64,000 nt of DNA from contig NZ_JALJCL010000009.1 in NCBI RefSeq assembly GCF_023698535.1, positions 1-64,000 of the forward strand, read 5' to 3'. The notes under the pieces are model-generated. The model saw only the letters and a list, made by a program, of their open reading frames with translations. It did not search any database and was not told the origin of the DNA. Source of the DNA: Halorientalis regularis. GTDB lineage: Archaea; Halobacteriota; Halobacteria; Halobacteriales; Haloarculaceae. Of the stretch, positions 6,519 through 32,211 are shown one piece after another (position 1 is the first letter of the stretch; each line of letters begins with the position of its first letter). The translations under genes and the position numbers were made by a program.

Positions 6519-6740
6519 CCGTACTGCACACTATGTATCTCGGTGGACAAATATCTCGGGTAGACGGTGGGAAATCCGGGGCTGCAACAGAACGGTGGAT
6601 TGGCACACTATGGTGCCCGCTTAACCCCCGCCTGAAGGCAGGGGTATGCGCTCGCTGTCTTTATGACCGTCACACAGAATGAGTTAATCACCCCACTGCG
6701 CACAACCAGAGATGGCTGTAGAATACTTATAGGCGGAACA

Positions 6741-8189
6741 GGCGCAATACCACGGCCTTCAGGCCGTGGATACGCGCCGTCACTCTACCACGCAGACTAC
6801 CAGTTACACCACGGCTGGATATTCCACAGTGCTTAAACAAATCGACTTCATAACAACATATAGCGGATGCCAACAACACGCCGCACATACGTTTGCCGCA
6901 TCCAAAACCACTCGCAAGTGGCTGGTGCGCTGGACAGACACGGCTGGTCGGCATCCAAACTCTGGAACGTCGCCAACTACTACGCCCGTCAGCAGTGGGA
7001 TGAAACCGGGAAAATCCCCGATGAAGGCGAACTCAAACGCGAACTGAAAACCCACCCGAAATACAAAGGACTGCATAGCCAGTCCAGTCAGAAAGTTCTC
7101 GAAGAGTTTTCTGAAGCGTTCAGTTCGTGGTTCGGCTCCGATGACAACCGGGACAACCCACCGGGATACCGTAAAACCAACTACTACGATAGTGACGGCA
7201 ACAGAGTCCACGAAGAACATCCGCGCTCGACGGTGACGTGGAAGAAAAAAGGTATTCGCCACGACACAAAACACGCCAGAATCCGTCTGAGCAAAGGCAA
7301 GAACCACAAAGACGGACGCGATTTCATCCTCTGCGAATACGAGACGCCGCCTGCTGTTGAACTGGAGAATATCCAATAGGTTCGTGCTGTCTACAACAGC
7401 GCCAAGAGTCGCTGGGAGTTGCACGTCGTCTGTGAGACCGAGATCGCCGCAGAGTTACCCGGCGAGAACACAGCTGGCGTCGATTTGGGCATCTGCAACC
7501 CCGCCGCCGTCGCCTTCTCCAACGACGCGTTGCTGTATCCGGGGAACACGTTGCGTGAAGACAAGCACTACTTCCAGCAAGAAGAGTACCAGACGGAGGG
7601 TGATCACGGCCCCAGTCAGAAAGCGCAGTGGGCGCGTGAAAAGCTGTCGCGGCGGAAAGACCACTTCCTGCACGCCCTCTCGAAAGACATCGTTGAACGG
7701 TGTGTCGAGCACAACGTCGGAACACTCGTTGTAGGCGACCCAAGCGGAGTAGACGAAGACAACTGGGGTAGACACGGCAACAAACGCCTCGATAATTGGG
7801 CGTACAAGCGGTTGATGAACATGTTGGACTACAAAGCTCGTGAGCGCGGTATCGAGGTAGAGATGCCGGATGAACGCGGGACATCATCCGCGTGTAGCGT
7901 ATGCGGGCACGAGGATGACGACAATCGTGTTGAGCGTGGATTGTGGAAATGTGACCGGTGCGGAGTGGTCGCGCATGGCGACGTGAACGGAGCCGACAAC
8001 ATCAGGCAAAAAACGCTAAGCGTGACTCCCCCACTCAGGGATAGCGATAACGGCTGTTTGGCCCAGCCTCGTGTCATCCACTTCAGCCGGACTCGCGGAT
8101 TCCAACCGCGAGCACCCGCCGGGTGACGCGCAAACCCTGATATCCCAACACTCGGGATTCCCCCGCGTTCACGCGGGGGAGGAGGTCAA
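6741..8189 (+). mobile_element. tnpB-only IS200/IS605-family element
   Basis: The left end carries a perfect 9-bp hairpin (CCACGGCCT/AGGCCGTGG, 6750-6769). The right end has the hairpin CCCCCGCGT/ACGCGGGGG (8160-8179) and finishes GGAGGTCAA at 8189, as in the elements at 4744 and 14203. There is no tnpA, so mobilisation would need a transposase in trans. The left boundary is approximate. Confidence 0.7.
6867..8126 (+). pseudogene. tnpB: tnpB interrupted by an amber codon (variant RuvC subgroup)
   Basis: ATG 6867 opens a 419-codon frame with a TAG at 7377-7379 after VELENIQ. The homologue at 35170-36423 has a Gln codon there (VEDVQQVRIV), so one C-to-T change explains it. The second part has RuvC-I GVDLGICNPAAV, zinc-ribbon pairs CSVCG and CDRCG, and a last Asp in HGDVNGADN. 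The RuvC-II position reads VVGDPSGV rather than the usual Glu-Asp/Asn. An acidic residue just before the zinc ribbon (MPDERGTS) may take over, as reported for Fanzor-like and some TnpB clades. As it stands, full-length protein needs stop readthrough. Confidence 0.82.
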
Positions 8190-11115: not shown

Positions 11116-11256
11116 TTACTCGGTTGGGTCTGATGTTCGGACGATTTTCACGTCTGCGCCACGCCACCGTTTTGGGACGAGGACGTGTGCGCCGTTGCCG
11201 GTGGGTTTCACCTCGCCTTCGATGACTTCGTGGCCTTCAATTTCGTGTCTATCCAT
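11116..11256 (-). CDS. DUF2080-type small transposon-encoded protein
   Basis: ATG 11256 opens a 46-residue frame, MDRHEIEGHEVIEGEV onward, with VPKRWRGADVKIV near the end. Short DUF2080 proteins of this kind are known upstream of tnpB in haloarchaeal and methanogen elements. The VPKRW core recalls AbrB/SpoVT-like DNA-binding folds. The identical arrangement at 16425-16565 (nearly the same sequence) shows selection or recent common origin. It ends 3 bp before the tnpB start, so the two form an operon. Its role is unknown; a repressor of element genes or a TnpB partner is possible. Confidence 0.82.
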   Translation of the reverse strand: MDRHEIEGHEVIEGEVKPTGNGAHVLVPKRWRGADVKIVRTSDPTE

Positions 11257-11449
11257 CACCAGTGTTTAAATATTGTTTCAACATAAATGTATCGGTTCGT
11301 GGGCCTGTGGGCCAGCAACAAGAAGGCGTCTGCAAGATGATGACAGCGCTGTATCCCCTCCCTACTGCCCTCCTTGTCCGCTTGCGCGGACTGCGGTGCT
11401 CGTTGAGGAAGGAGGATTAGCGCCTGCAATCTGCTAAATTGTTCTCTCA

Positions 11450-17819: not shown

Positions 17820-18366
17820 TGATTGTGGACTAAGCGATCTCCCGAAGTTTCAAGCCAGGTATTTTGTGCGAGTATTACCGTGGGGAAAACAGTGTCGTAC
17901 GCTCGGTCGATATCAGCCGAATGGGCTAGCCGATGAAAACGGGTGATCTGCCGGCACCCACAATCAGCCGCCGCTCTGGTTGAGAGTGCACTTGAGAAGC
18001 CAGCACGTAGCAGTGTTGCACCCACTGCAGGTCTATTACCCGAAGTCATAGTAACGGGCGTGATGCTTTTCAAGAATTTTGATATCAACCATAACCCCCT
18101 ATTCAGTGTTCCGTCTTGGCCCGATTTCGCCGGTGGCTTCGATGTCAAACTGTTCAATGACGAGAGAAAATATAATTTAATATGTTTACCACTGAATCAA
18201 TGAAAGTGCATCAAGATAACCAAAAGTATATCACTTTGAGATGCAGAGAAGAAACTGAATAAATGGTTAGTCACAATCCTGTGAGAGCAAAATCAGTCTG
18301 CAAACAAAATGTCGCAGACAATGCATTCTATAACAGAGTGCGCCCATCTACAGTGTTTAACAGCCA
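17820..18366. other. Gene-free stretch before the surface-protein/RND operon
   Basis: No frame here has a recognisable motif. The last 200 bases are AT-rich (for example near 18170-18190 and 18250-18360), and the promoter of the operon starting at 18367 should lie there. No convincing single TATA box or operator palindrome could be picked out. Confidence 0.4.
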
Positions 18367-20028
18367 ATGAGAAAGATCATAATTTCACTTGTAACGTTTT
18401 CTGTACTCATATCGACCGTCGGAATTGCGCCCACAGCCGGTGCTAATACCAACTCGAGTCCTCAGGAAGCCAGTGTAGCTCAGATTAGTCAATCTTCCGG
18501 ACAAGTGATCGGTGAGCCCGATATTTCGATTAGTTCAACAGTCGAAGAATTTAGTCCAGGGACATCATCACAATTCCGACTATCGTTGACGAACCGGGGT
18601 GAAATCAAGCGTGCCGGCCCCTCACGATATCAAAACCGCGTCACTACTGCTCGGGGTGTCACTATCGAAATTAAAGATGGTAACACACCGTTTGATGTTT
18701 CAACTGGAACAGTTACAGCAGGAAACGTTCCAACAGGAACGGTCCAGACAGATCCGATCTCGATAACTGTACCTGAAAAAGTAGATCCCGGAACGTATAC
18801 GATACCAGTCGAATACGAGTACGAGTACACCCGAATCGTCTCATACGACAGCTATGGCGCTGAATACAATGACTTCACTGAAAGCGTCAGTAGTTCCATT
18901 ACGATTCGTGTCCGTAATCAGGCACAGTTCGAGGTCGTAGAGCAGGAGACGACAGCACAGATTGGCGACACAAGCGATATCAGTCTCACCTTAGAAAACA
19001 CGGGGACCCGTCCTGCTAGTGACGCGAGTGTGAGTGCCTCTTCCCGGAGCGACGAACTCACCTTTGGGACTGGTTCGGGAAGTTCAACCGCATACGCCGG
19101 CAGTACATGGGAACCGAACGAACGCAAAACCGTGAATTACAGTGTTGCGCTCGCTGATGATGCAACACAACGAGCCTATACACTCGATCTGAACGTCGAT
19201 TACACTGATACGGATGGAATTGGTCAGACCTCCCGCACATTGAAAGCGGGAGTGCCGACGGTCTCGGCACAGGAATTCGACGTCGAAAATGTTGAATCTA
19301 CACTCCGTGTTGCCAGAGAAGGGCGGTTAGAAGCGACGATTGTAAACCAAGGACCCCAAACTATCAGTGCTCCTATTGCTACTCTTCGATCGAACAATCA
19401 GAACCTCAACATCAATAATCCAGAGTTTGCACTCCCCGATCTTGCGCCTGGGGAACAGGCACGCGTGAATTACACGGTTGATGTGAGCAGTGCAGCCGAT
19501 GCTGCTGTCCAGCAATTCAATTTCGAGATTGCATACGACAACCAAAACGGTGAGCGGCGGACGAGTAACCTAATCCTAGCAAACGCCCGTATTAAGCAGC
19601 AGCAAGACCAATTCATTGTCGAACCCGTCAACCAGACAGCAATAGCTGGAAAAGAAACCACTCTGGAACTCAGGGTGACCAACAATGGCGAGAAGCCTCT
19701 GCGTAGTATCGAAGGGAAAGCGTTCCTTGATGATCCACTGAGCAGTAGTGATGATGAAGTGTTCATTGATCGGTTAGGGCCTGGAGAAACCACAAATGTT
19801 TCAGTTGCGCTCAGTGTTGGTAGCGGAGCTCTCGAAAAAACCTATCCGTTCTCGATTGACTTCCAGTATGAAATGCCAGATGGCGATACCGAAGTCTCGA
19901 AAACGTACAACGTCCCGATCCAGGTTGAGCAAATCGAAGAGGACGGAGGGCTTCCACTCCCACTGATTGGCGGCGTTGCTGTTCTTGTCTTCGGTGCTGG
20001 TATTGTTTGGTATGCGCGGCGGGAGTAG
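18367..20028 (+). CDS. COG1361-type surface protein, partner of the downstream RND transporter
   Basis: The 553-residue protein has a signal peptide (MRKIIISLVTFSVLISTVGI, then PTAGAN). About 480 residues of tandem Ig-like/CARDB-NEW3-like beta domains follow (motifs such as LTLENTGTRPA, LRVTNNGEKPL). A C-terminal helix (LPLPLIGGVAVLVFGAGIVW) ends in ARRE, so it is anchored with the domains outside. Haloarchaea commonly encode such a protein directly before an MMPL/RND transporter. By analogy with periplasmic adaptors it may couple the pump to the exterior (inference). The transporter starts 27 bp downstream and a TetR gene overlaps that, so one operon is likely. Confidence 0.85.
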   Translation: MRKIIISLVTFSVLISTVGIAPTAGANTNSSPQEASVAQISQSSGQVIGEPDISISSTVEEFSPGTSSQFRLSLTNRGEIKRAGPSRYQNRVTTARGVTIEIKDGNTPFDVSTGTVTAGNVPTGTVQTDPISITVPEKVDPGTYTIPVEYEYEYTRIVSYDSYGAEYNDFTESVSSSITIRVRNQAQFEVVEQETTAQIGDTSDISLTLENTGTRPASDASVSASSRSDELTFGTGSGSSTAYAGSTWEPNERKTVNYSVALADDATQRAYTLDLNVDYTDTDGIGQTSRTLKAGVPTVSAQEFDVENVESTLRVAREGRLEATIVNQGPQTISAPIATLRSNNQNLNINNPEFALPDLAPGEQARVNYTVDVSSAADAAVQQFNFEIAYDNQNGERRTSNLILANARIKQQQDQFIVEPVNQTAIAGKETTLELRVTNNGEKPLRSIEGKAFLDDPLSSSDDEVFIDRLGPGETTNVSVALSVGSGALEKTYPFSIDFQYEMPDGDTEVSKTYNVPIQVEQIEEDGGLPLPLIGGVAVLVFGAGIVWYARRE

Positions 20029-20055
20029 AATCAAATAAACTCCATCATAGAATAT

Positions 20056-22515
20056 ATGATTGATTATCAGAAATATATTGAAATAATCGACGACTGGATC
20101 GTCAATCGCGATACCACAGTCGTTGGTATCTTCCTGATTGTGACGCTGCTGCTCTCGGGAGGCCTCGGGATGACGGCTACTGATTCGGGAACGTCACAAT
20201 TCACGGAGAATGTTCCAGCACAAGAAGCATTCGATAACGTGAATGATAATTTTGAGCGGCAGCCCTTCGAACGTGGGACTGGGAGTACAACCCTCATACA
20301 TAGGAGTAGCAATGTCCTCTCGAAGTCCTCTATTCTCGAAATGCTACGGGCCCAGCACCGGCTCAAAGAAGATGACTCTCAGGACGTTGTCGGAACGAAC
20401 AGTGTTGCACAGTCAGTTGCGCTAACCGTTGATCCAAACGCCACAACGTTATCTGCTCAAATCGACGCAGTTGAATCTGCTCCGGCATCAGTGGTGAAAC
20501 AAGCAGCCCAGCAGACACTCGAAGAGCGGCCGAGTATCGCTGGATTGCTTAGTAAGGATCTCAATCGACGAGAACCCTCCGCATCAGCAACTATTGCGAC
20601 CGTTAGTCACCGCGTTGGGGGGACTTCTGATTCTGCAGGTACACAGGGAACATCACCACTAACACCGATTCAGCAAGAGGCTGTATTCATTGTTGGATCA
20701 ACAGGCGCTGATATTACGGTCTTTGGCAGTGGGTTGATTTCTGCCGAACTGCAGAGTGTCATCAGTGACTCACTGATTCTCGTAATTCCTGCCGCTGTAA
20801 TTCTCATTCTGTTTTTCCTGATCGTCTCCTATCGCGACCCATTTGATCTGTTGATCGGATTGATATGTCTTGGAATGACGATACTGTGGACATTTGGGTT
20901 CATGGGCTGGGCAGGAATCCCATTTACTCAGATGTTGATCGCCGTTCCACCGCTTTTGCTTGCAGTGGGTATTGACTTTGGAATCCATGCCGTCAATCGC
21001 TACCGCGAAGAACGCGTTCAGGGAACAGAAGTCTCGACATCCATGCGCTTGACGACTGACCAGCTTCTCCCGGCTTTCTTCATCGTAACCGGGACGACGG
21101 TCCTCGGATTCGCTGCCAATGGTGCGAGCGATCTCGCCCCGATCCGTGATTTTGGACTGGTCGCTGCGGTTGGTATCGTCTTTACATTCTTGATCTTTGG
21201 TATTTTCCTGCCGTCGCTGAAACACTTTATCGACCGCAAACGCGAGAAATACAACCTGCCGACATTCAGTATCGCACCGATCGGGTCTGAAGATTCGGCC
21301 GTCGGACGTGTCTTGACTGTTGGTGTGGGTATTGCTCGGCGAACCCCACATACGTTCTTCGTTATTGTGTTGCTCTCGACAGCCGTGATGGGTGCCTACG
21401 GAACAGGCGTCGATACCCGCTTCACCACGGAAGACTTCCTACCACCAGAAGAGAATCCCGAATACTTCGAGGAGTTACCAGCATCACTCGCACCTGGCGA
21501 GTACACTGTGACAGATACAATAAACTTCTTGGAAGAGAACTTCGAGAGCAGTGAATCGGATTCTGTCACAATATATATGGAAGGTCCGATGCAGCGAGAC
21601 TACGCATTAGAATCCATATACAAAGCAAACCAAAACCCACCGGATTCCTTCGTGAGTAATGGCCGACGCGCCAGCGCCACAAGCATTCTGGGTGTCATTA
21701 ACCAGTACGAACGACAGTCGCCGAAATTCCGACAACTCGTTCAGGCGAACGACATTGATAACAATGGAATCCCGGACAAGAATTTGCCAGCGATCTACGA
21801 CGAACTCTATGCATCACCGTATGGAGACGAAGCTCGTTCGTATCTGACAGATGATTACTCGAAAGCCCGGATCGTGTATTCAGTCAAATCCGATGCGTCA
21901 CAGGCAGAAGTCACCGCGGATACACGAGAGCTAGCAAACGATATGCGGTTTGAAGCAACAGCAACTGGCAGCGTGGTTGTTCTGAAGGCAGTCTCAGATG
22001 TCATTGCTGAATCCGCGTATATCAGCTTGGCGCTGGCGATACTCGCTTCGGCTGTCTTCCTCGTAATCGCCTATTGGATCATAGAACAGCGGCCTAGCCT
22101 CGGGATTGCAAATCTAGTGCCGATTCTTGTCACTATTGCAGCACTGGCAGCTACAATGCGGTACCTCGATATTCCATTCAACGTGCTAACTGGAACGACA
22201 CTGTCAATCGGTATCGGACTGGGTATTGACTACTCAGCACACCTCGTCCATCGATTCTCTGAGGAGTTCCGAGAATCGACAACTCTCTTTGAGGCCCTCT
22301 CAATTGCAGTAAGCGGGACTGGGGGAGCGCTAGCTGGAAGTATGCTCACAACAACTACGGGTACTGGTGTACTCGTACTCGCAATTACACCAATTCTCGG
22401 GCAATTCGGCCTTCTCATTGCCTTGAGTGTCCTGTACTCGTTTGTCGCTTCGGTCGTCATTCTGCCCACAACATTAGTGATGTGGGATGAGGCACGAGAG
22501 GTGAGTCCGATATGA
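20056..22515 (+). CDS. RND-superfamily MMPL-type transporter
   Basis: This 819-residue membrane protein has the two-fold MMPL layout. TM1 is at 20-40 (VVGIFLIVTLLLSGGLGM), followed by an external domain to about 230 and five helices at 235-390. TM7 is near 425-445, followed by a second external domain. The last five helices start near 655. The motifs GIDFGIHAVNR and GIDYSAHLVHR carry the Asp of the proton path in each half (GxDY-like). Archaeal members are thought to export lipids or hydrophobic compounds. It sits between the surface protein and a TetR regulator, a typical drug- or lipid-responsive arrangement. The stop overlaps the TetR start by 4 bp. Confidence 0.9.
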   Translation: MIDYQKYIEIIDDWIVNRDTTVVGIFLIVTLLLSGGLGMTATDSGTSQFTENVPAQEAFDNVNDNFERQPFERGTGSTTLIHRSSNVLSKSSILEMLRAQHRLKEDDSQDVVGTNSVAQSVALTVDPNATTLSAQIDAVESAPASVVKQAAQQTLEERPSIAGLLSKDLNRREPSASATIATVSHRVGGTSDSAGTQGTSPLTPIQQEAVFIVGSTGADITVFGSGLISAELQSVISDSLILVIPAAVILILFFLIVSYRDPFDLLIGLICLGMTILWTFGFMGWAGIPFTQMLIAVPPLLLAVGIDFGIHAVNRYREERVQGTEVSTSMRLTTDQLLPAFFIVTGTTVLGFAANGASDLAPIRDFGLVAAVGIVFTFLIFGIFLPSLKHFIDRKREKYNLPTFSIAPIGSEDSAVGRVLTVGVGIARRTPHTFFVIVLLSTAVMGAYGTGVDTRFTTEDFLPPEENPEYFEELPASLAPGEYTVTDTINFLEENFESSESDSVTIYMEGPMQRDYALESIYKANQNPPDSFVSNGRRASATSILGVINQYERQSPKFRQLVQANDIDNNGIPDKNLPAIYDELYASPYGDEARSYLTDDYSKARIVYSVKSDASQAEVTADTRELANDMRFEATATGSVVVLKAVSDVIAESAYISLALAILASAVFLVIAYWIIEQRPSLGIANLVPILVTIAALAATMRYLDIPFNVLTGTTLSIGIGLGIDYSAHLVHRFSEEFRESTTLFEALSIAVSGTGGALAGSMLTTTTGTGVLVLAITPILGQFGLLIALSVLYSFVASVVILPTTLVMWDEAREVSPI

Positions 22516-23117
22516 ATGACGACATTCCATTCGAGATTAAATCGACCGGGACAAAAGGACTCATTATAGAATCGGCCTATCGAGCGTTGTTAGAACATGG
22601 CTATGCTGATCTCACCATGCAACAAATTGGCGAGAAATTACCGAGAAGCACATCCATTATATACACATATTATGACGGGAAAGAGCATCTTCTCTTCGAT
22701 CTGCTCCGACATCTGCTGCAATGGCTTGAGCCAAAAGAACCCGTTACAGATGCAGACCCACATGAGCAATTACTCTCACAGATTGATGGTTTGTTGAATC
22801 TCCCAAATAAAAAAGTGGATAGAAACGGACTGGTTACCATTGCTGTACTGCGGGCGAATACACAGCAGAACGTTCGCTTTCAGGAGGAGTTTGAGCGGAT
22901 AGATTCGGTGTATAAAAGCCACTTTTCGACACTCATTGAGTTGGGAATCGAAAACGATCGATACTGTACGGTTGATCCAGAGACAGTCGCATCGTACCTC
23001 TATTCGACAATTCTGGGACAGATCGTGTTATCAGTCACAACTCACGAGAGTGGAGACGCTGCCAGTATTGAACACGAAATAAAGGAGTATATTCGGTCGC
23101 GGTTGCTTAGGAATTGA
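22512..23117 (+). CDS. TetR/AcrR-family regulator of the RND operon
   Basis: The 201-residue protein has an N-terminal TetR helix-turn-helix: ESAYRALLEHGYADLTMQQI followed by STSIIYTYYDGKEHLL, where Tyr-Tyr contacts the backbone. A helical ligand domain completes it. ATG overlaps the transporter stop (ATGA), so it is translated from the same mRNA and probably represses the operon from 18367 until a transported compound binds. It converges with a second TetR gene (23158-23763), only 40 bp apart. No operator palindrome was located with confidence. Confidence 0.88.
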   Translation: MNDDIPFEIKSTGTKGLIIESAYRALLEHGYADLTMQQIGEKLPRSTSIIYTYYDGKEHLLFDLLRHLLQWLEPKEPVTDADPHEQLLSQIDGLLNLPNKKVDRNGLVTIAVLRANTQQNVRFQEEFERIDSVYKSHFSTLIELGIENDRYCTVDPETVASYLYSTILGQIVLSVTTHESGDAASIEHEIKEYIRSRLLRN

Positions 23118-23157
23118 AGAGAACTACCAGTGATACCGTATATTTGCAGACTTGAAG

Positions 23158-23763
23158 TCATTTTTTGAGACAGGGTAGGAACTGGGTTGTCACGATTTCT
23201 CGAATCTGGTCGGGGTTCATCTCTGAGTTTGTAGTGTGTCTATTCAGTATTCCACCAACAATTATCAACAGGAGGTGTTGTGCTGTCAGATGAGTATTTA
23301 CGTCTCGGAATACATTCTCTGCTATTCCATTATTGATGATCTCGACGAACAGATTCCCCAACCAGCGATAGATTTGAGTGAACTGATCGCGGTATAATTG
23401 CTTGTGTGGAGATTGAGACTGGATTTCCAGCAGAGCGGTCTGCATCTGGAAAATCTCTTCGCTAGAAGAATCATCGGGCCCATATAATAGCACATCTACA
23501 AGATCCAACAATTGTTGCTCTGGAGATGAATCTTCGTCGATCTGAATCGTCTCTCTAAATTCAGAGAGAAGATAATTCAAAAATGCTGCGAGAAGATCTT
23601 CCTTCGTGTCATAATGGTAATGCAATACTGCCTTCGATTTACCAAAGTTATCGGCTATTGATTGTATCGTGAGTCCTGCATATCCATGCTGCTGGATTGC
23701 ATCATACGTTGCCTGCATGATCTCCTGTTTAGTGTCGCTAAACTTATTATTATTATCGATCAT
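23158..23763 (-). CDS. TetR/AcrR-family transcriptional regulator
   Basis: The 201-residue protein carries a standard TetR DNA-binding head: IMQATYDAIQQHGYAGLTI and KSKAVLHYHYDTKEDLL, with recognition-helix Tyr-His-Tyr. The rest is helical with no similarity I can name. It is the same length as the TetR encoded at 22512 but clearly divergent, so it is not a recent duplicate. It is transcribed away from the LAGLIDADG-like gene's end and towards the RND operon. It may regulate itself or that operon. The target is unknown. Confidence 0.85.
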   Translation of the reverse strand: MIDNNNKFSDTKQEIMQATYDAIQQHGYAGLTIQSIADNFGKSKAVLHYHYDTKEDLLAAFLNYLLSEFRETIQIDEDSSPEQQLLDLVDVLLYGPDDSSSEEIFQMQTALLEIQSQSPHKQLYRDQFTQIYRWLGNLFVEIINNGIAENVFRDVNTHLTAQHLLLIIVGGILNRHTTNSEMNPDQIREIVTTQFLPCLKK

Positions 23764-23835
23764 AGAACTCTATCTTACCATTCATTTGTGGTCGCCCTGA
23801 GTGCATTCCATTTTGAAAATAGCCAGATAAGAATA

Positions 23836-24330
23836 TTAGGAAATGTCACCCCATTCCTTTTGGAAGAATTCTAGATCGTATTTTGCTCGATTAGCGCGCC
23901 CAACCCGTTCCCGGAATGTCTCAATGTCTTCCATCAAAGAGAGGAACGATTGTTTTTCACGATGATCCCCGTCGTTGAGACGGGGAATAATAGTCTCACA
24001 GAGGAGATCAACTGCATCATCTCGGACGACGAGATACGGAACGACAAATTGAAGAAAGGTCTGAAGACTATCTCTACGGCTAACAATAAGCTGATACGAA
24101 TCATAGGTTGTCTCCCGGTCAGAGTCGACACGATATGCGATATCGTGATCCTCACAAAAGCTAGTTAATAAGTCGAGACTCTCTTTTGCAGAAAGCTTGA
24201 TTCGACATTGTGTTTGGATCCCAAAGCCGATGCGACTGTCTGACCTCTTCGCTACCGTAATCACAATGCCAGCGTGATTGTCAACAAGCCCAGCAATATA
24301 CGGTGTCCGCCAGTCCGAACATTCAACCAT
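23836..24330 (-). CDS. Stand-alone LAGLIDADG-fold protein with altered active site
   Basis: The 164-residue protein opens with PYIAGLVDNHAGIVITV, the first helix of a LAGLIDADG homing-endonuclease fold. The strand-turn pattern of that fold follows (RIGFGIQTQCRIKLSAKE, later TTYDSYQLIV) and the usual distal helices. In the motif the eighth residue, the metal-binding Asp of active enzymes, is His, and the ninth Gly is Ala. It is therefore probably a DNA-binding relative without nuclease activity. It is not inside an intein or intron. A single motif means it would act as a dimer. The role is unknown; a regulator is possible. Confidence 0.65.
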   Translation of the reverse strand: MVECSDWRTPYIAGLVDNHAGIVITVAKRSDSRIGFGIQTQCRIKLSAKESLDLLTSFCEDHDIAYRVDSDRETTYDSYQLIVSRRDSLQTFLQFVVPYLVVRDDAVDLLCETIIPRLNDGDHREKQSFLSLMEDIETFRERVGRANRAKYDLEFFQKEWGDIS

Positions 24331-24438
24331 CAGTGCTAAACCAATGCGCCCTTCTGTTTAACTCTTACAGGAGATCGACGTCGCAAACAACGACCCGGTA
24401 GCAAGAAAATTGTTCAGCGTATCTGATGGCCGTTTGTA

Positions 24439-24597
24439 TCAATCAGAAATATGAACAGCCAGCACTTGGAGATCCATTGTACGTAGCGTCCGTTCTGTGA
24501 CGCTCCCAAGAGGTGTCGTTGAAGACCAGCACGGCCGTGGGTCTATTACTATTGGATCGGCACCGGTTTCAACTGCGTATATGTCGATTTCCTCGTG
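24439..24597 (-). pseudogene. Remnant of a universal stress protein (UspA) C-terminus
   Basis: The minus frame reads HEEIDIYAVETGADPIVI, a short scrambled piece, then LGSVTERTLRTMDLQVLAVH. This is the end of the UspA fold, in which AVETGAD and the LGSV(T/S)ERV motif line the nucleotide site. The Gly-rich loop between them is damaged and the N-terminal 90 residues are missing. The remnant sits in a stretch of broken genes. Confidence 0.6.
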
Positions 24598-24641
24598 GGG
24601 CGACCGCTCACGACGGCAGCCGTCGGTTGTTGGCCGTAGTG

Positions 24642-24846
24642 TCACGAACCTGAACAGTGGCGTCTTCGATCTGGTACTTCAAATTTGAACCACACAGTCG
24701 AGGACTCGCCCGGTTCAAGCGTCCTGAGGCTCAAACCATTCGAAAGCAACACGAATGGTTCCATCGAGTGTAGATGGGGCCGAGCATTTGCCGCTGGTTG
24801 ACTGCTCGTATTCGTTACTGACAATTCAACGACTCCAGTCGAGTTT
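24642..24846 (-). pseudogene. COG1361-type surface-protein pseudogene, 3' piece
   Basis: After the ISH3-type insertion the frame continues as TGVVELSVTNTSSQPAANA and LSLRTLEPGESSTVWFKFEV, a CARDB/NEW3-like beta domain. It then loses the frame near 24660 and stops. It is the last of three pieces (27810-27985, 26238-26469, this one) of one gene cut by two elements. The protein resembled the surface protein encoded at 18367. Confidence 0.7.
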
Positions 24847-26237
24847 CAGTACCTCACAAAGCATCGGCAGTTAACCTGAGCTGAGTCACCTCTTCTGTTT
24901 GGATGAGTCGTCGATAGCGGTCGAAGAACGTTGATCGAGGGCGGAGCTGTCGCTGTCGGCGGCGACCAGCCGCCGACGCGACAGCGTTGCCACTCACGAA
25001 GCGGCGTCCTCGGTCGGTGACTAGCGGTGAAACCGGTCGTCAGGTGGCCGGTTCGCGGGGACGGCCCGACGCACCGCGAGGGCCGTCCACGCAGCCCGTC
25101 GAACCATATTCACGAACTCCTTGTACAGCCACCACCAGAGGCGACGCCCGCCTCGGCGGGGCGTCGCCACGTATTCGTAATGGATATACCGCCACGCGTT
25201 CTGCAACAGCAGACTCACCACGACGTACAGCAGTCTCACCGTCGCATCACGCGTCGTTGTCGTCGCTATCGCTGCTCGGACAAGCGATAGCTTGACTCGA
25301 TACCGAAGCGTTTGCTGTAGTGGTATCGGGCCTGGCGTGGTGTTTCGACGAACGGCGCGTCAGCGGCGTAGCCGTGACGCGCCACACCGTTCTCATCATA
25401 CCGTCCATTCAGGTATATACAGTCGATGTAGACGGGAAACTCGACGGTCACGGCTGTGACCGTCGAGTTTCCCTGTCAGGTCATGTTGAATGACGCGGCT
25501 CCATCCTTCCGAGAGTTCCTGCTGAATCGTCTCACCCCACCGAATGATCGGCATTACGTAGGCGTAGTTGTGTGCCTGTAGTAGTGTGAGACACTTGCTG
25601 TCGAAGAAGCCGCGATCAAGGTAGACGGCCTTGACCTCCACCTCAAGGCCGTCGAGCACTCCGAAGAACTCGGCAAGGACGCTGCTGGCGGTGTCGCCGT
25701 CCTCGAGACGGCGCACCGCCAGCGTGTACCGTTTGTTCTTCACGCGTGCGTAGAGCGTGGCGTAGGCGTGGAACGCAGTAGTTCCGCGCTTGGCCTCGGA
25801 ATGATAGAGGCCGTCTGTGTCGTCTTCATCACCGTAGTAGGGTCGCAGGTGGAGGTCTGCGCAGACCTCCACCTGCTCGGGGAGTAGTTCGACGATGTCT
25901 CGTCGAAGAAGGGCGTTAGCGACTCGTTCGAGCCGTTCCGGCTCGAACTTCGTCCGCAGATGGTAGAGGATCGCGTTTGCTGATGGTGAGTCTTCGCTGG
26001 AGTTGCAAAGCGTAGAGATCGAGGTCCCGTCGGCAGTCGCGCCGACGAGGACCTCGTAGATGTCCTCAGCGTTGAGTTCAGCGTTGTTCGCAAGCCCGAG
26101 AGAAACTTCCTCGTCAAGCCGGTTGACGAGGAAGTTAAGGAGTTGGTCCTCGTGGATTTTACTGTCTGCTTGCTGCTGTTTGCTAGGCACATTCGCAGCA
26201 AGCAGACCTCTCAACTAACCGGCTTTGTGAGGTACTG
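24847..26237 (-). mobile_element. ISH3-family insertion sequence, copy 1
   Basis: The 1391-bp element has inverted ends beginning CAGTACCTCACAAAGC on one side and the matching CAGTACCTCACAAAGCC on the other. It is flanked by the 5-bp target duplication AGTTT (24842-24846 and 26238-26242). The intact duplication implies a fairly recent insertion, although its transposase is frameshifted. It interrupts a COG1361-type gene. Confidence 0.9.
25021..26190 (-). pseudogene. ISH3-family transposase, two frameshifts
   Basis: The protein would be about 388 residues. The start is taken at GTG 26190, which aligns with the start of copy 2. The catalytic region includes ADLHLRPYYGDEDDTDGLY and KAVYLDRGFFDS, which carry acidic residues expected of the DDE fold. 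Compared with copy 2 (30991-32159), the frame is lost near 25445, where one base differs in the GKLDGHS segment, and again near 25268 (missing base in SEQAIA). The two copies break at different sites. Each might be complemented in trans by an intact copy elsewhere. Confidence 0.85.
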
Positions 26238-26469
26238 AGTTTACCTGCAGTGCTGACGTTGATATCATAGGATCAAATTGAGGGCCAGCAGTGACCGTAA
26301 TGTCATTCATGCGATTTATCAACTGTCGCGGATTGTCGTTCTCGTCTTCGTGACGCAGTCTGAAGTCAACGACATAAGAGTTCGGCACCCGTAACCTTTG
26401 TCTGGAATGTCGCTGTTGTCGTCTCGCCTCGAGCAAAACGGCCCAGTGCGACCCCGTTGTTTTGGGGCG
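26238..26469 (-). pseudogene. COG1361-type surface-protein pseudogene, middle piece
   Basis: Reading down from 26469: PQNNGVALGRFARGETTTA, then TFQTKVTG. A frame change near 26395 follows, then YVVDFRLRHEDENDNPRQ and PQFDPMISTSALQVN up to the ISH3 target duplication. Across both element junctions the frame is continuous when the insertions are removed; the internal frameshift is a separate lesion. Confidence 0.7.
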
Positions 26470-27809
26470 TGAATAGCCTCGGGGTCAAGCCCTGAGGCTT
26501 CCTGCTTCGATGACGCGCTTTGCAGACACCGTAGTGGTGTCCGTAGGGAGCGCAGTCTCCACAGACGTGTCTTCGGGCCATCCCAGCCCTAATTCAGAAA
26601 AACCGCGTTGCAGGACATTCATCGCCGCATTCGCGTCACGGTCACACTCAAACCCACACGCCGGGCAAGAATGTTCCCGAACCCAGATGGGCTTCGCCGT
26701 CTCCACACCGCACGACGCACACTCTTTGGTTGTCCCTTCGGGTTCAACCTGCTTGACGTGACAGCCGTACAGGTCGGCCTTGTATTCAAGGAGTATGATG
26801 AATTGTCGCCACGCCGCGTCCTGCTTGCTTCGAGCGTTGTGCGACTGTTCAAGCATCCCCTTTACGTTCAATTCCTTGACGAATACGGCGTCGTACTCGC
26901 GGACGAGCCACGTCGTAATCTTGTGCTGGTAATCCAGCACCTTCCGACGGATGTGGCGCTTCACCTTCGCCACTTCTCGACGCTGTTTCTCGTAGTTGTT
27001 CGACCCTTCTTCCTTCCGCGACAACATGCGTTGTTCTCGTTGGAGTCGTTCGTACTCGTCTTCGGGGTCGAGCCAATCCACAGTATGGCCGTCGGAAGTG
27101 TGGATATAGTTCAGGATGCCGAGGTCAACGCCAACGCTATTGCTCGCGTCCAGCGAGTCAACGTCGGGTTTCTCGGGGAGGCTGGCGTCGTCGGTTTCGA
27201 GGGCGAAGGAGACGAACCACTTGCCGGTCGCCTCCTTCTTGACCGTGACTTCCTTGATGTCGGCTTCGTCTGGGATGTCGCGGTGGTAGCGGATGGGGAT
27301 GTCACCGATTTTGGAGAGCCAGAGCGTTGCACGTCGGCCACTCGTGTTTTTGAGTTCGAAGCCAGACTGCGAAAACGTCATACTCTGGAACTCCCTTAGT
27401 GACTTTCACCTGAGTTTGCCGACCTTACGCCCGTTCTGTTTCTGCTCGGAGAGTCCGTCAAGGTTGTCGTAGAACCGCGTGACGGTTCGTTGCAGGGCCT
27501 TCGAGTTGACTTCCGAGGAGACGAACTGGTCTTTCCAGTCGGGAAGTCGGTAGTGGTGTTTGTACGTGGAGCCGATGTTGTCGGCGTCCACGTTTTCGTA
27601 CTCGTACCGGGTGTAGTTGTACGCTTGGCGATGAATGTCGATGTGACGTTCCAGTTCACCGGCTACCTCTTGTGTCGGGTATGCGGGGTAGCGGTGACCG
27701 TACTCCATCGCTTTCTCTTGATTAGAGACGTGTTCACTTAATGGTTTGTATCACAGGTTGTCGGCTTCAACCTCGGGGTCAAGCCTCGGGGCATTCGCCT
27801 CAACCGCCT
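26470..27809 (-). mobile_element. tnpB element inserted in a surface-protein gene, ends mapped to the base
   Basis: On the minus strand it begins AGGCG at 27809, right after the target TTTTAC, and ends TTCAC at 26474-26470. Joining ...CATTTTAC to GCCCCAAAAC rebuilds the codons S-P-H-F-T-P-Q-N-N of the host gene. Insertion 3' of TTAC without target duplication is the known behaviour of IS605-type elements. A hairpin lies at 26476-26500. No tnpA or DUF2080 gene is present. Confidence 0.85.
26485..27708 (-). pseudogene. tnpB: tnpB interrupted by an opal codon
   Basis: ATG 27708 (MEYGHRYPAYPTQEV) opens a 407-codon frame with TGA near 27406 after RKVGKLR. The intact homologue at 9853 has Trp in GSLNWKAPRDF at this point, so TGG to TGA explains it. 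The remaining 298 residues, from MTFSQSGFEL, have Asp in SVGVDLGILNY, Glu in VFVKELNVKGM, zinc ribbon CASCG/CPACG and the last Asp in CDRDANAAMN. The break separates the N-terminal recognition domain from the nuclease part. Confidence 0.85.
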
Positions 27810-27985
27810 GTAAAATGTGGAGACTCGACCATGCTGAGTTCAGTGTTCCGGGCGACTTCCGTCCCACCATTTGTGACTGTTATCGAGATACTTCCAGCAG
27901 CACCATCGGAGAGTTGCTTACCAGTCGCGTCGGCAATGTCGAGACGAACCGACTCCTCGATCCGGACAGTCACATAGCCTGTAAG
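27810..27985 (-). pseudogene. COG1361-type surface-protein pseudogene, 5' piece
   Basis: The minus frame reads VTVRIEESVRLDIADATGK, then AAGSISITVTNGGTEVARNT and ELSMVESPHFT. This is an Ig-like CARDB/NEW3-like domain that meets the tnpB element at 27809. Upstream of 27985 the frame has stops and no start codon or signal peptide, so the 5' end of the gene is lost. The sequence 27986-28188 holds nothing else recognisable. Confidence 0.7.
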
Positions 27986-28188
27986 ATTCTAGACCGTCGC
28001 CAGGGGGATCGACCGATTCCACTCGTTCTGACGTGGTATTGTATTAAGTGCAAAATAGGGCTAGAGGGTTCAACCACGACTACAACCGATACCGACCGGA
28101 TCAAGCGTTAGATGACCGCACTTCTAGCGAAGAGGTTCAGAGACGGATAGCTCCTGATATACCCCAACTGTCCACCAAATCAGGTATG

Positions 28189-29454
28189 TTATCGATTTTC
28201 ACGAGATAAGCCTGTAGGTAATTGACGTCTGGTGTATACGCTCCGACCCAGTCGGTTCCGGTTGTAATCAAGAACATTTATAAACAGTACATCTGATTTC
28301 AATAATTCATTTGGCAGCGTTATGTTGACTGATAGAGACTGTGGTCCGTCCACAGTTACTGTTTTTTCTCGAAGCCTACCCATATCATATACCTGCACAG
28401 CGATTATGGAGCCAGGTGCAACATTTGTATACCCTTGTATTCTAATTGTGTCATTTTTTATTTTTGGATTTGAGAATACATAAGCAAACCTTCCGAATAC
28501 GGTAAAGCTCGTCACAGCACCCTGGGAGTGGCTGAGAGTAGACGCATTAGATCGTTGTTCATCACCGACAGTTAGTGAATATGTATTCCTTCGGTCAATA
28601 TTGGGTTGGGTGGGAAGGAAGAGATACACAGAGTCGTTAGTAATCGCAGTCTTAGAGGGGCGCAAAGTTACTAAGCGAGAGGCATCTCTACTAATCGATA
28701 GTTCAGTCCCATGTCCGAGTAGTCCAGTTAGATTTGTACTATATTTTATTTCCCCACGATCAGTTTCTGTCCGGTTCCCTACTATCGTCGTGTTTACCGT
28801 ATGAGTATCAGGATATTCAGGATTAGATATACCTTCATACCGAACAACAAGATAGCTATCAGAGGGGATAGTTGCGTTTCCGTCTATCGAGAATTGGATA
28901 GTGTTTGAATCAGGCGCAGATACATATTCAATAGAATCATTCAATGATTTCTCAATGAATCCATCCTGATTCTCATCAACACCGAACAGTGTTATATTAT
29001 TTTTATACAATATATTATTTAAATGAGGCCGGATCTCATATTTAATCGAAATTTGTTGTATTTCAGTAATTGATTTATTAAGCTCGGGGACGACCGTGTG
29101 GGTCGTATTTGCGCCAGGGGTTGCTGGGGAGGCATATGCTATGTTACTACCAACAGATCTGTTATACAAGCAACTTGTGTTACTCGATTTTGGAAATTGA
29201 ATGGACAACCAGTCTTCACTCGCGACGTGGTTGAAATCACTATATTGAATTTTGTTTACCAGTTTTGCCGGATTTGAGAATTGTGCTGGTGCCCTTCCGA
29301 CCCTGATGTTTGAATTATTATAATTGCAGGTATGAAATTTGTCACTTCTGCCATCGGAGTTAGTCTCGGCAACAGCTGTGCCGGTCCACACTAACGTAGT
29401 TAACAAAAATATAGTAAGAGTGAACCAAAAAATTCGCTGAGCGTAGCGTTTCAT
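28189..29454 (-). CDS. Secreted glycoprotein-like protein of unknown function
   Basis: The 421-residue protein has a signal peptide (MKRYAQRIFWFTLTIFLLTT, cleavage after TAVA). More than 15 Asn-Xaa-Ser/Thr sites suggest heavy N-glycosylation outside the cell. Five Cys (three in the mature N-terminal region) are unusual for a haloarchaeal surface protein. Two beta-rich halves are visible; VDENQDGFIEKSLND looks like a single calcium-type DxNxDG loop near 157. There is no C-terminal anchor, so it is probably released. Base composition is far more AT-rich than the rest, which suggests a foreign origin. I recognise no family. Confidence 0.72.
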   Translation of the reverse strand: MKRYAQRIFWFTLTIFLLTTLVWTGTAVAETNSDGRSDKFHTCNYNNSNIRVGRAPAQFSNPAKLVNKIQYSDFNHVASEDWLSIQFPKSSNTSCLYNRSVGSNIAYASPATPGANTTHTVVPELNKSITEIQQISIKYEIRPHLNNILYKNNITLFGVDENQDGFIEKSLNDSIEYVSAPDSNTIQFSIDGNATIPSDSYLVVRYEGISNPEYPDTHTVNTTIVGNRTETDRGEIKYSTNLTGLLGHGTELSISRDASRLVTLRPSKTAITNDSVYLFLPTQPNIDRRNTYSLTVGDEQRSNASTLSHSQGAVTSFTVFGRFAYVFSNPKIKNDTIRIQGYTNVAPGSIIAVQVYDMGRLREKTVTVDGPQSLSVNITLPNELLKSDVLFINVLDYNRNRLGRSVYTRRQLPTGLSRENR

Positions 29455-29839
29455 GCACCGATTCGTTACTTGTTTACTGTAATAAGCCTTGTGTGGCGGG
29501 TTAAGAGAGTGCTCTAGTTTGCTATGTCATGCCCGGCTTATTACTACTCACGGATGCAGGGCTATGTAATCACAGCCGGGCACTCAACGGGCGACTTGTG
29601 TATGGGCCCATGTACTGATACGTGGATGTCCAGGACAGCGGATATCTATGGTGTCCCGAATTTTAGGAGAAATCAGACTGTGTGGAAACGACAGACAAGA
29701 TCTCAACCGACACCATACAGAGCGCACGAAACACGTTTAATCAGAGGGTATGGCCGCTACCCGTGAGCCGCTCGGCTTGTCCCGCCTGTAGGGATGGTTG
29801 GAAGAAAACTTGATACGGATCCAATATTGATGTTACAAC
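29455..29839. other. Intergenic stretch between divergent secreted-protein genes
   Basis: It contains only short frames without motifs. It should hold the promoters of the genes starting at 29454 (minus) and 29840 (plus). I see no clear TATA box, RNA gene or repeat. Confidence 0.4.
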
Positions 29840-30546
29840 ATGACAAGAAGTGTCTTACTTGTTCTGGGAATGCTCATTTTAGCTTCAATGAGCGTTGGAA
29901 TTCTAATTGGGATTCAGTTCAGTAACGGAACTGATTCTCCGGTTTCCAACCAGACAAAAAAAATCCACCAGACAATCCAACACCGACCCCCATTTCAGGT
30001 CCAAACCAGACACCATATGAAAACACGCAGACGACATCACCACAATCACCCAACCGTCAATTACAGGATGTCCTACTAAATACGATTAACAGTTATCGGA
30101 TTCAACATGGTCGTAGCCCGTTAGATAATACAGGACCACCAACAAATCGGCTCAGACAAATAGCGACAAACCATAGCCAAGATATGGCTACAGTCGGTGT
30201 TGCTAGAATCTCTTTGCGCGGAAGTACCAGTTCTGATCGCTATAGCGAGGCTGGGCTAAATAAGAGGTGTTCATTTCCATCCAACAGTGGTTATTCAACT
30301 ATTGATCCTTCTATCGGGAAGTTAGAACTGGTGGCCACCCCAGTTAGAGTACCACCATACGAAAACGTTGAAGCAGGATATAATGGAGATCCGTCTACAG
30401 TGGCAGAAACTGCATTAAATACATGGACAAATTCGAACCAGGATCGTCGGAAGTTATTATACAAGAATGCAGAACAAGTTGGAATTGGTGTTGTAATCAC
30501 TAATCGTGGCAGCGTATATCTGACAGTTTCTTTATGTGGTGCCTGA
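29840..30546 (+). pseudogene. CAP-domain (SCP/PR1-like) secreted protein gene with frameshift in an A8 tract
   Basis: ATG 29840 gives a membrane or signal segment (VLLVLGMLILASMSVGILIG) and then reaches a run of eight A at 29956-29963. Past it the sensible frame changes: a Pro/Thr/Asn linker (NPPDNPTPTPISGPN) and a CAP domain follow. Its marks are INSYRIQHGRSPLD, NHSQDMA, PYENVEAGYNGDP, TWTNSNQDRRKLL and VGIGVVI, ending at 30546. CAP proteins of prokaryotes are secreted and mostly of unknown function. A tract of nine or six A would restore one frame of about 235 residues. It could be a true mutation, slippage expression, or a sequencing error. Confidence 0.75.
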
Positions 30547-30608
30547 CATGCCCATCTATACTATCGCACTCCGTGAGACACACCGTGTTTACGAGACGTT
30601 GTTTTTCG

Positions 30609-30816
30609 TCAAGTATGCAGCGCCGAAAAAACGACCGCCAACGACACGGCCTCGATTTCAGATACGAACGCGACGGAAATCGGAACAGTGTCGAACGTAT
30701 CTTTCGTGAGGTAAAACGCCGTACCTTTTCGTTCTCAAATTGTTTCAGCAACGCCGAGCGAGACACAGTTGACGACTGGCTCCAATCGTTCGCCTTCGCA
30801 TGGAATCAGCTAGTCT
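30609..30816 (+). pseudogene. C-terminal remnant of an IS6-family transposase
   Basis: The frame reads RHGLDFRYERDGNRNSVERI, REVKRRTFSFSNCFSNAE, FAFAWNQLV. This matches the end of haloarchaeal IS6-family (ISH15/ISH29-like) transposases, including the final acidic-residue helix with Asn-Ser-Val-Glu. The N-terminal two thirds are gone. ISH3 copy 2 entered at the last codon. Joining the flanks gives Val-TGA, the natural end of the gene. Confidence 0.75.
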
Positions 30817-32206
30817 CAGTACCTCACAAAGCATCGTCGGTTAGCCTGACCTGAGCCACATATTCTGTCGTGATGAGTCGTCGATAGCGGTTGAACAACA
30901 CTGACTGATGGCGGAGCTGTCGCTGTCGGCGGCGATCAGCCGCCGACGCGACAGCGTTGCCACTTCCGAAGACGCTCGATCGGTCAGTGGCTACCGGTAG
31001 AACCGGTCGTCAGGTGGCCGGTTCGCGGGGACGGCCCGACGCACCGCGAGGGCCGTCCACACAGCCCGCCGAATCATATTCACGAACCCCTTGTACGGCC
31101 ACCACCAGAGGCGACGCCCGCCCCAGCGGGGCGTCGCCACGTATTCGTAGTGCAGATGCCGCCACGCGTTCTGCAACAGCAAACTCACCACGACGTACAG
31201 CAGTCTCACCGTTGCGTCTCGTGTCGTTGTCGTCGCTATCGCTTGCTCGGACAAGCGATAGCTCGACTCGATACCGAAGCGTTTCGAGTAGTGGTATCGA
31301 GCGTCGCGTGGAGTCTCGATGAACGGCGCGTCAGCGGCGTAGCCGTGACGCGCCACGCCGTTCTCGTCATACCGTCCATTCAGGTACGTACAGTCGATGT
31401 GGACGGGAAACTCGACGGTCCAGCTATGACCGTCGAGTTTCCCTGTCAAGTCGTGTTGAATGACGCGGCTCCAGCCTTCCGAGAGTTCCTGCTGAATCGC
31501 CCCACCCCACCGGATGATCGGGACCACGTAGGCGTAGTTGTGCGCCTGAAGCAGCGTGAGACACTTGCTGTCGTAGAATCCGCGATCGAGGTAGACGGCC
31601 TTGACCTCGGTGTCAAGGCCATCGAGTATTCCAAAAAAAACTCGGCGAGGACACTGCTGGCGGTGTCGCCGTCTTCGAGACGGCGCACCGCCAGCGTGTA
31701 GCGTTTGTTCTTCACACGCGCGTAGAGTGTCGCGTAAGCGTGGAACGCGGTGGTTCCCCGCTTCGCTTCCGAGTGGTAGAGGCCGTCTGTGTCGTCTTCG
31801 TCACCGTAGTAGGGCCGCAGGTGGAGGTCTGCGCAGACCTCCACCTGCTCGGGGAGCAGTTCGACGATGTCTCGTCGAAGAAGCGTGTTAGCGACTCGTT
31901 CGAGCCGTTCCGGCTCGAACTTCGTCCGCAGATGGTAGAGAATCGTGTTCGCAGGCGGTGAATCCTCGCTGGAGCCACAGAGCGTAGAGACCGAGGTCCC
32001 GTCGGCGCACGCGCCGACGAGGACCTCATAGATGTCCTCAGCATTGATTTCAGCGTTGTTCGCAAGGCCGAGAGAAACTTCCTCGTCAAGCGTGTTGACG
32101 AGAAAGTTAAGAAGCTGGTTTTCGTGGATTTCACTGTCTGCTTGCTTGGTCCTAGACACACCATCAGCAAGCAGACGTTCTAACTAACCAGCTTTGTGAG
32201 GTGCTG
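30817..32206 (-). mobile_element. ISH3-family insertion sequence, copy 2
   Basis: The 1390-bp element has the same ends as copy 1 (CAGTACCTCACAAAGC outward) and a 5-bp target duplication AGTCT at 30812-30816 and 32207-32211. It is closely related to copy 1 through its whole length but carries a different frameshift. It lies inside an IS6-family remnant, so the order of events is IS6, then ISH3. Confidence 0.9.
30991..32159 (-). pseudogene. ISH3-family transposase with frameshift in a T8 tract
   Basis: GTG 32159 (MSRTKQADSEIHENQ) opens the frame. It is correct until ASSVLAEFF, where the minus strand has eight T (31640-31633) in place of the six-base TTCTTC of copy 1, and the frame shifts. The second part, from about 31630 to 30991, is fully open (VVPIIRWGG, TVEFPVHIDCTYLNGRYDEN, SYRLSEQAIATTTT). 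One frameshift is thus the only lesion. Slippage on the homopolymer, programmed or accidental, could still yield full-length enzyme. Confidence 0.85.
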
Positions 32207-32211
32207 AGTCT

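Follow-up and report, generated by a model that had tools for sequence, protein, structure and literature searches.

Two decayed insertions in an old remnant of a COG1361/NEW3-type gene of Halorientalis regularis

The stretch of DNA analysed here (the window, 64,000 nucleotides, contig C45 of the Halorientalis regularis draft genome, which totals 4.03 Mb in 45 contigs) very probably holds an old pseudogene remnant, that is, a truncated gene fragment with two standard haloarchaeal insertions, both of which have decayed too. Pieces of one coding sequence run on the reverse strand from 27985 down to 24642, on both sides of a tnpB element and of an ISH3-family element. The first-pass annotation had read this arrangement as a single COG1361-type gene cut by the two elements. 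Indeed, both were inserted into one coding sequence, but the host is a truncated and frameshifted fragment rather than a gene; the name COG1361 is the one given by that annotation. The features of the locus are as follows.

24439–24663, reverse strand: C-terminal part of a gene of the universal stress protein (USP) family, syntenic with H. persicus locus L024 up to L024 6868, inside the USP gene at 6639–7460.
24667–24841, reverse strand: last piece of the COG1361/NEW3-type gene remnant, 84.8% identical to L024 10386–10563 and ending at a deletion breakpoint.
24842–24846: AGTTT target-site duplication, copy 2, at the ISH3 edge.
24847–26237, reverse strand: ISH3-family insertion sequence of 1391 bp with a frameshifted transposase, recognized from its terminal inverted repeats (TIRs), its target-site duplication, NF033541 and comparison of copies.
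26238–26242: AGTTT target-site duplication, copy 1, at the ISH3 edge.
26238–26468, reverse strand: middle piece of the remnant, placed by DNA alignment, with an 8-bp deletion at about 26380/26381.
26469–27809, reverse strand: IS200/IS605-type (IS1341-type) tnpB element of 1341 bp, whose right end is shared by copies in the same genome and in relatives.
26485–27708, reverse strand: tnpB coding sequence, a single frame but for one in-frame TGA (27406–27408).
27810–27814, read on the reverse strand: TTTAC target and presumed TnpB TAM, from comparison of copies.
27810–27984, reverse strand: first piece of the remnant (upstream side), 84% identical to L024 10801–10974 and to L025 11730–11903.

Two uninterrupted genes served as DNA references for the junctions: a paralogue in the same genome, with an open frame of 581 codons (contig C14, locus L025), and the syntenic gene of a second species of the genus, Halorientalis persicus IBRC-M 10043 (G004, contig C65, NZ_FOCX01000014.1, locus L024), with an open frame of 518 codons. 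The latter frame starts late owing to a one-base gap near the 5′ end of the gene, as seen against C14 (L024 about 11180–11300). Once the flanks are joined, the reading frame is restored locally at each joint, giving SPHFT|PQNN at the tnpB element and VNS|TGVVEL at the ISH3 element, and the joined DNA is approximately 80% identical over 590 nt to both references. One base has to be corrected. The tnpB element had been placed at 26470–27809, the removal of which leaves an extra C; its true extent is 26469–27809, and only with this extent is the proposed join CATTTTAC-GCCCC obtained. With the correction applied, both joints are ungapped in the DNA alignments to C14 and to H. persicus.

The same holds at the protein level, where neither the remnant nor any of 12 intact homologues (12/12) shows a gap at either joint; these comprise C14, H. 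persicus and ten more from the same order (the best ten with loci fetched), the last ten being 38–53% identical to the C14 protein. The comparison with uninterrupted orthologues that the first-pass annotation had proposed thus bears out both junctions. It had also named an orthologue differing at a junction as evidence against its reading, and such a difference does exist at base level: at the tnpB joint the remnant has TTTACG, but TTTAGA stands in both of the uninterrupted DNA relatives. We do not count this as a refutation, since the relatives are only approximately 81% identical there and the length is kept. Consequently no empty allele shows the exact target, and a pre-insertion TTTAC was seen in none of the uninterrupted genes compared.

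What remains of the host gene is delimited by synteny. Window positions 17820–24663 match L024 23–6868 at 95.9%, and 27985–30816 match L024 11826–14642 at 91.5%. Missing from the window are L024 6869–10385 (approx. 3.5 kb), which holds most of the USP gene (PF00582), a whole MMPL gene of 788 codons and the 3′ part of the COG1361-like gene, and L024 10975–11825 (approx. 0.85 kb), which holds the 5′ part of the COG1361-like gene and upstream DNA; the block between the two matches the remnant. The latter is therefore 581 aligned columns (approx. 580 bp) from the middle of the gene, and both gene ends are gone. On the upstream side the breakpoint lies at 27984/27985, DNA past 27985 matching L024 from 11826 on. 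On the other side, the 3′ deletion has fused the last remnant piece to the C-terminal part of the USP gene, with a possible 5-bp microhomology (CGATC) between the parent sequences, and a stop codon follows the breakpoint. In addition, the reading frame is shifted between the tnpB element and ISH3 through the 8-bp deletion. We infer that the H. persicus arrangement is the ancestral one, so that these differences would be losses in the window lineage.

The elements might themselves have caused the flanking deletions, for instance by recombination between copies, instead of landing in an already dead fragment. The synteny with H. persicus ends at 30816, at the left edge of a second ISH3-family copy (30817–32206), which is consistent with such events. 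However, the breakpoints at 24664 and 27985 lie about 175–180 bp from either element and the target duplication of the ISH3 copy is intact, so that we regard this origin of the deletions as unlikely.

The ISH3 element is bounded as the first-pass annotation had it, from 24847 to 26237: its 15-bp terminal repeats are perfect (CAGTACCTCACAAAG/CTTTGTGAGGTACTG) and both AGTTT copies are in place. Its first ORF contains the transposase domain (NF033541, 242.5 bits for a cut-off of 225), but the transposase frame is not intact, as single-base gaps appear in comparison with the second copy. The element nevertheless belongs to the ISH3 family as a decayed copy, because an intact frame is needed for activity and not for descent. 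The second copy lies within 30812–32211, is flanked twice by AGTCT and is 89% identical to the first; its transposase is also broken, by a 2-base gap of its own. Rfam matches in the ISH3 region (P37 and two microRNA families) were rejected as RNA genes, all being under the gathering scores.

The tnpB element shows the features of its class: insertion 3′ of a short motif without target duplication, and palindromic ends, palindromes similar to GGGGCTTGACCCC occurring close to both ends in many copies. Its product carries the OrfB_IS605 and TNB domains (PF01385 and PF07282 in a profile search), and NF040570 (guided_TnpB) matches both halves of tnpB; a frameshift was ruled out, the gene being one frame with a single TGA. 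No Y1 TnpA is present on the element, the five best Y1_Tnp hits of the genome all falling outside 26469–27809, and no omega-RNA family of Rfam was found at the locus up to an E-value of 1. Just outside the left end stands TTTAC, and the right end reads ...ATTCAC. As AC is common to both edges (TTTAC, TTCAC), the window copy alone fixes the ends only within 2 bp. Both elements had been described as fixed to the base; this holds for ISH3, whereas for the tnpB element other copies were needed to settle the ends. Where the blast match of a copy extends to the right end, it breaks off at query positions 1372–1376, which corresponds to 26469 or slightly beyond it; on the left, close copies carry TTTAC too.

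We then compared 32 copies of the tnpB element, window included, over a range from 25 nt upstream to 15 nt downstream of the projected left edge. TTTAC stands exactly at this edge in nine of the 31 other copies (10/32 with the window copy) and TTTAT in five; 10 of the 31 have one of the two motifs elsewhere in the range and seven have neither. By chance, either motif is expected in 2.3% of random 40-nt stretches. The right tail TTCAC is found in all 14 copies, among the 32, whose alignment reaches the right end. Two exceptions to TTTAC occur in the same genome, namely a tnpB copy on C14 with TTTTC and a tnpA-bearing element on C18 with TTCTAC. A related group of tnpB elements (L068–L072, in genomes G153, G155, G144, G001 and G079) has TTTAT at the left edge, and four of its five members have the right tail GATTCAC, the fifth being unaligned there. 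Judging from these copies, the target is better read as TTTAC than as the TTAC of the first-pass annotation, and it is not invariant. TTTAC did not occur among the papers listed in a literature search on TnpB, TAMs and IS1341; the motif may already be published.

Changes found only in the remnant are distributed over the three codon positions as 29:22:48 (of 99; chi-square p 0.004 against equal), and third-position divergence from H. persicus is 53/194, against 5–12% in five flanking genes. Being more diverged than the flanking genes and leaning towards third-position changes, the remnant is not simply a direct allele of the H. persicus gene that has been decaying since the species split. From this pattern of substitutions, it is probably a diverged copy that still coded for a while after its split from the C14/H. 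persicus type, and that has decayed as well. In the protein tree it groups with C14 and H. persicus (99/97) on a long branch of 0.34.

The genome also holds an intact COG1361–MMPL2 pair on C14 (L025:11129–15240), 92.6% identical to that of H. persicus, the COG1361-like gene of which (L025:11129–12871) displays NEW3/CARDB repeat domains (PF10633 in three stretches, PF07705 in two), as fits an NPCBM-associated NEW3 surface protein. Between C14 and H. persicus this gene is a mosaic, approximately 94–99% alike in the middle and 80–85% at the ends, which suggests past exchange between copies, as after gene conversion. It is conceivable, though very improbable, that the C14 copy was kept because it escapes cutting by TnpB. 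On this reading, the omega-RNA guide of the tnpB element would be the sequence on its right flank, and the target would be the remnant's own lost allele. The C14 paralogue reads TTTAG-ACCCCAAAGCAACGGGG and the predicted empty site of the remnant TTTAC-GCCCCAAAACAACGGGG, so that in the C14 site the final base of the motif is missing and two positions of the guide differ; C14 also encodes a full-frame TnpB of this type (L025:16216–17442).

The locus could alternatively be a full surface-protein gene disrupted by the two insertions only, whose function would return on removal of both. The frame restored at each joint is what this account predicts. The claim of a restored frame holds only locally, however: with the frameshifting 8-bp deletion, the missing 5′ and 3′ parts and the stop after the breakpoint, the whole gene is not restored, and the account is hardly tenable. 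A reversible insertion, in which some members of the population would regain an active gene by precise exit of the elements, is almost certainly wrong. ISH3 does keep its target duplication undamaged, and the ends of both elements are clean, but the TnpB and ISH3 transposase frames are broken, and excision could not yield a working gene as its ends are missing and the 8-bp deletion remains.

The history that we propose for the remnant begins with an ancestor that would have carried, at this place, the cluster of USP, MMPL2 transporter and COG1361/NEW3-domain gene still seen in H. persicus. The window lineage would have lost two flanking stretches, of approximately 3.5 kb and 0.85 kb, as well as 8 bp inside, leaving some 580 bp. 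An ISH3-family (ISH27-like) element inserted by cut-and-paste, most likely, and duplicated 5 bp of its target. The tnpB-only element inserted 3′ of TTTAC, without duplication, most likely via single-strand transposition and probably mobilized in trans by a Y1 transposase; both have decayed since. The order of insertions and deletions cannot be read from the sequence. The intact pair on C14 could supply the function. As for the Y1 transposase, the genome has five Y1_Tnp hits. An internal TAG interrupts one of these, the tnpA hit of an element on C18 bearing tnpA and tnpB (L047:266–2239), the ends of which resemble those of the tnpB-only element in the window. Since the latter has no tnpA and the C18 tnpA has an internal TAG, mobilization in trans is something that we can only infer.

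For one type of haloarchaeal tnpB element, this locus fixes the ends and suggests TTTAC (TTTAT in the related group) as the target and likely TAM, which gives work on haloarchaeal TnpB a starting point open to test. Otherwise it shows the ordinary decay of a gene in a genome rich in insertions. The closest counterpart of the host is the COG1361/NEW3 gene beside the MMPL transporter of H. persicus (NZ_FOCX01000014.1), which belongs to the same gene family at a syntenic locus and stands there without the two elements. The ISH3 element is approximately 88% identical in nucleotides, over approximately 1390 bp, to ISH27 of the same family on Halobacterium salinarum plasmids, where the matches are annotated ISH27-2; it differs in that its transposase frame is broken. 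ISH3 and tnpB elements are also neighbours on a Halorubrum ezzemoulense megaplasmid, but we rejected this pair as the same composite, as neither remnant DNA nor a homologous protein lies between them.

For haloarchaeal IS605-type elements, the relevant passages of PMC3119063 describe a conserved targeting oligonucleotide outside the element, tnpB on its own, as is usual in haloarchaea, decay, and terminal-only forms of 52 bp; single-strand transposition of IS200/IS605 elements is cited there as established for ISHp608. A sequence of approximately 50 bp elsewhere in the genome (L036, about C43:230024–230076), in which the left and right ends of the tnpB element are fused at their shared palindrome, resembles the terminal-only PATEs of Haloquadratum. 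With the IS605/IS1341-type transposons and PATEs of that account, which come from another genus, the tnpB element of the window shares near-terminal palindromes, a targeting oligonucleotide outside the element, the lack of a target duplication, a tnpB without tnpA and frequent decay. The locus is one more example of these known haloarchaeal elements, in a common kind of gene wreck.
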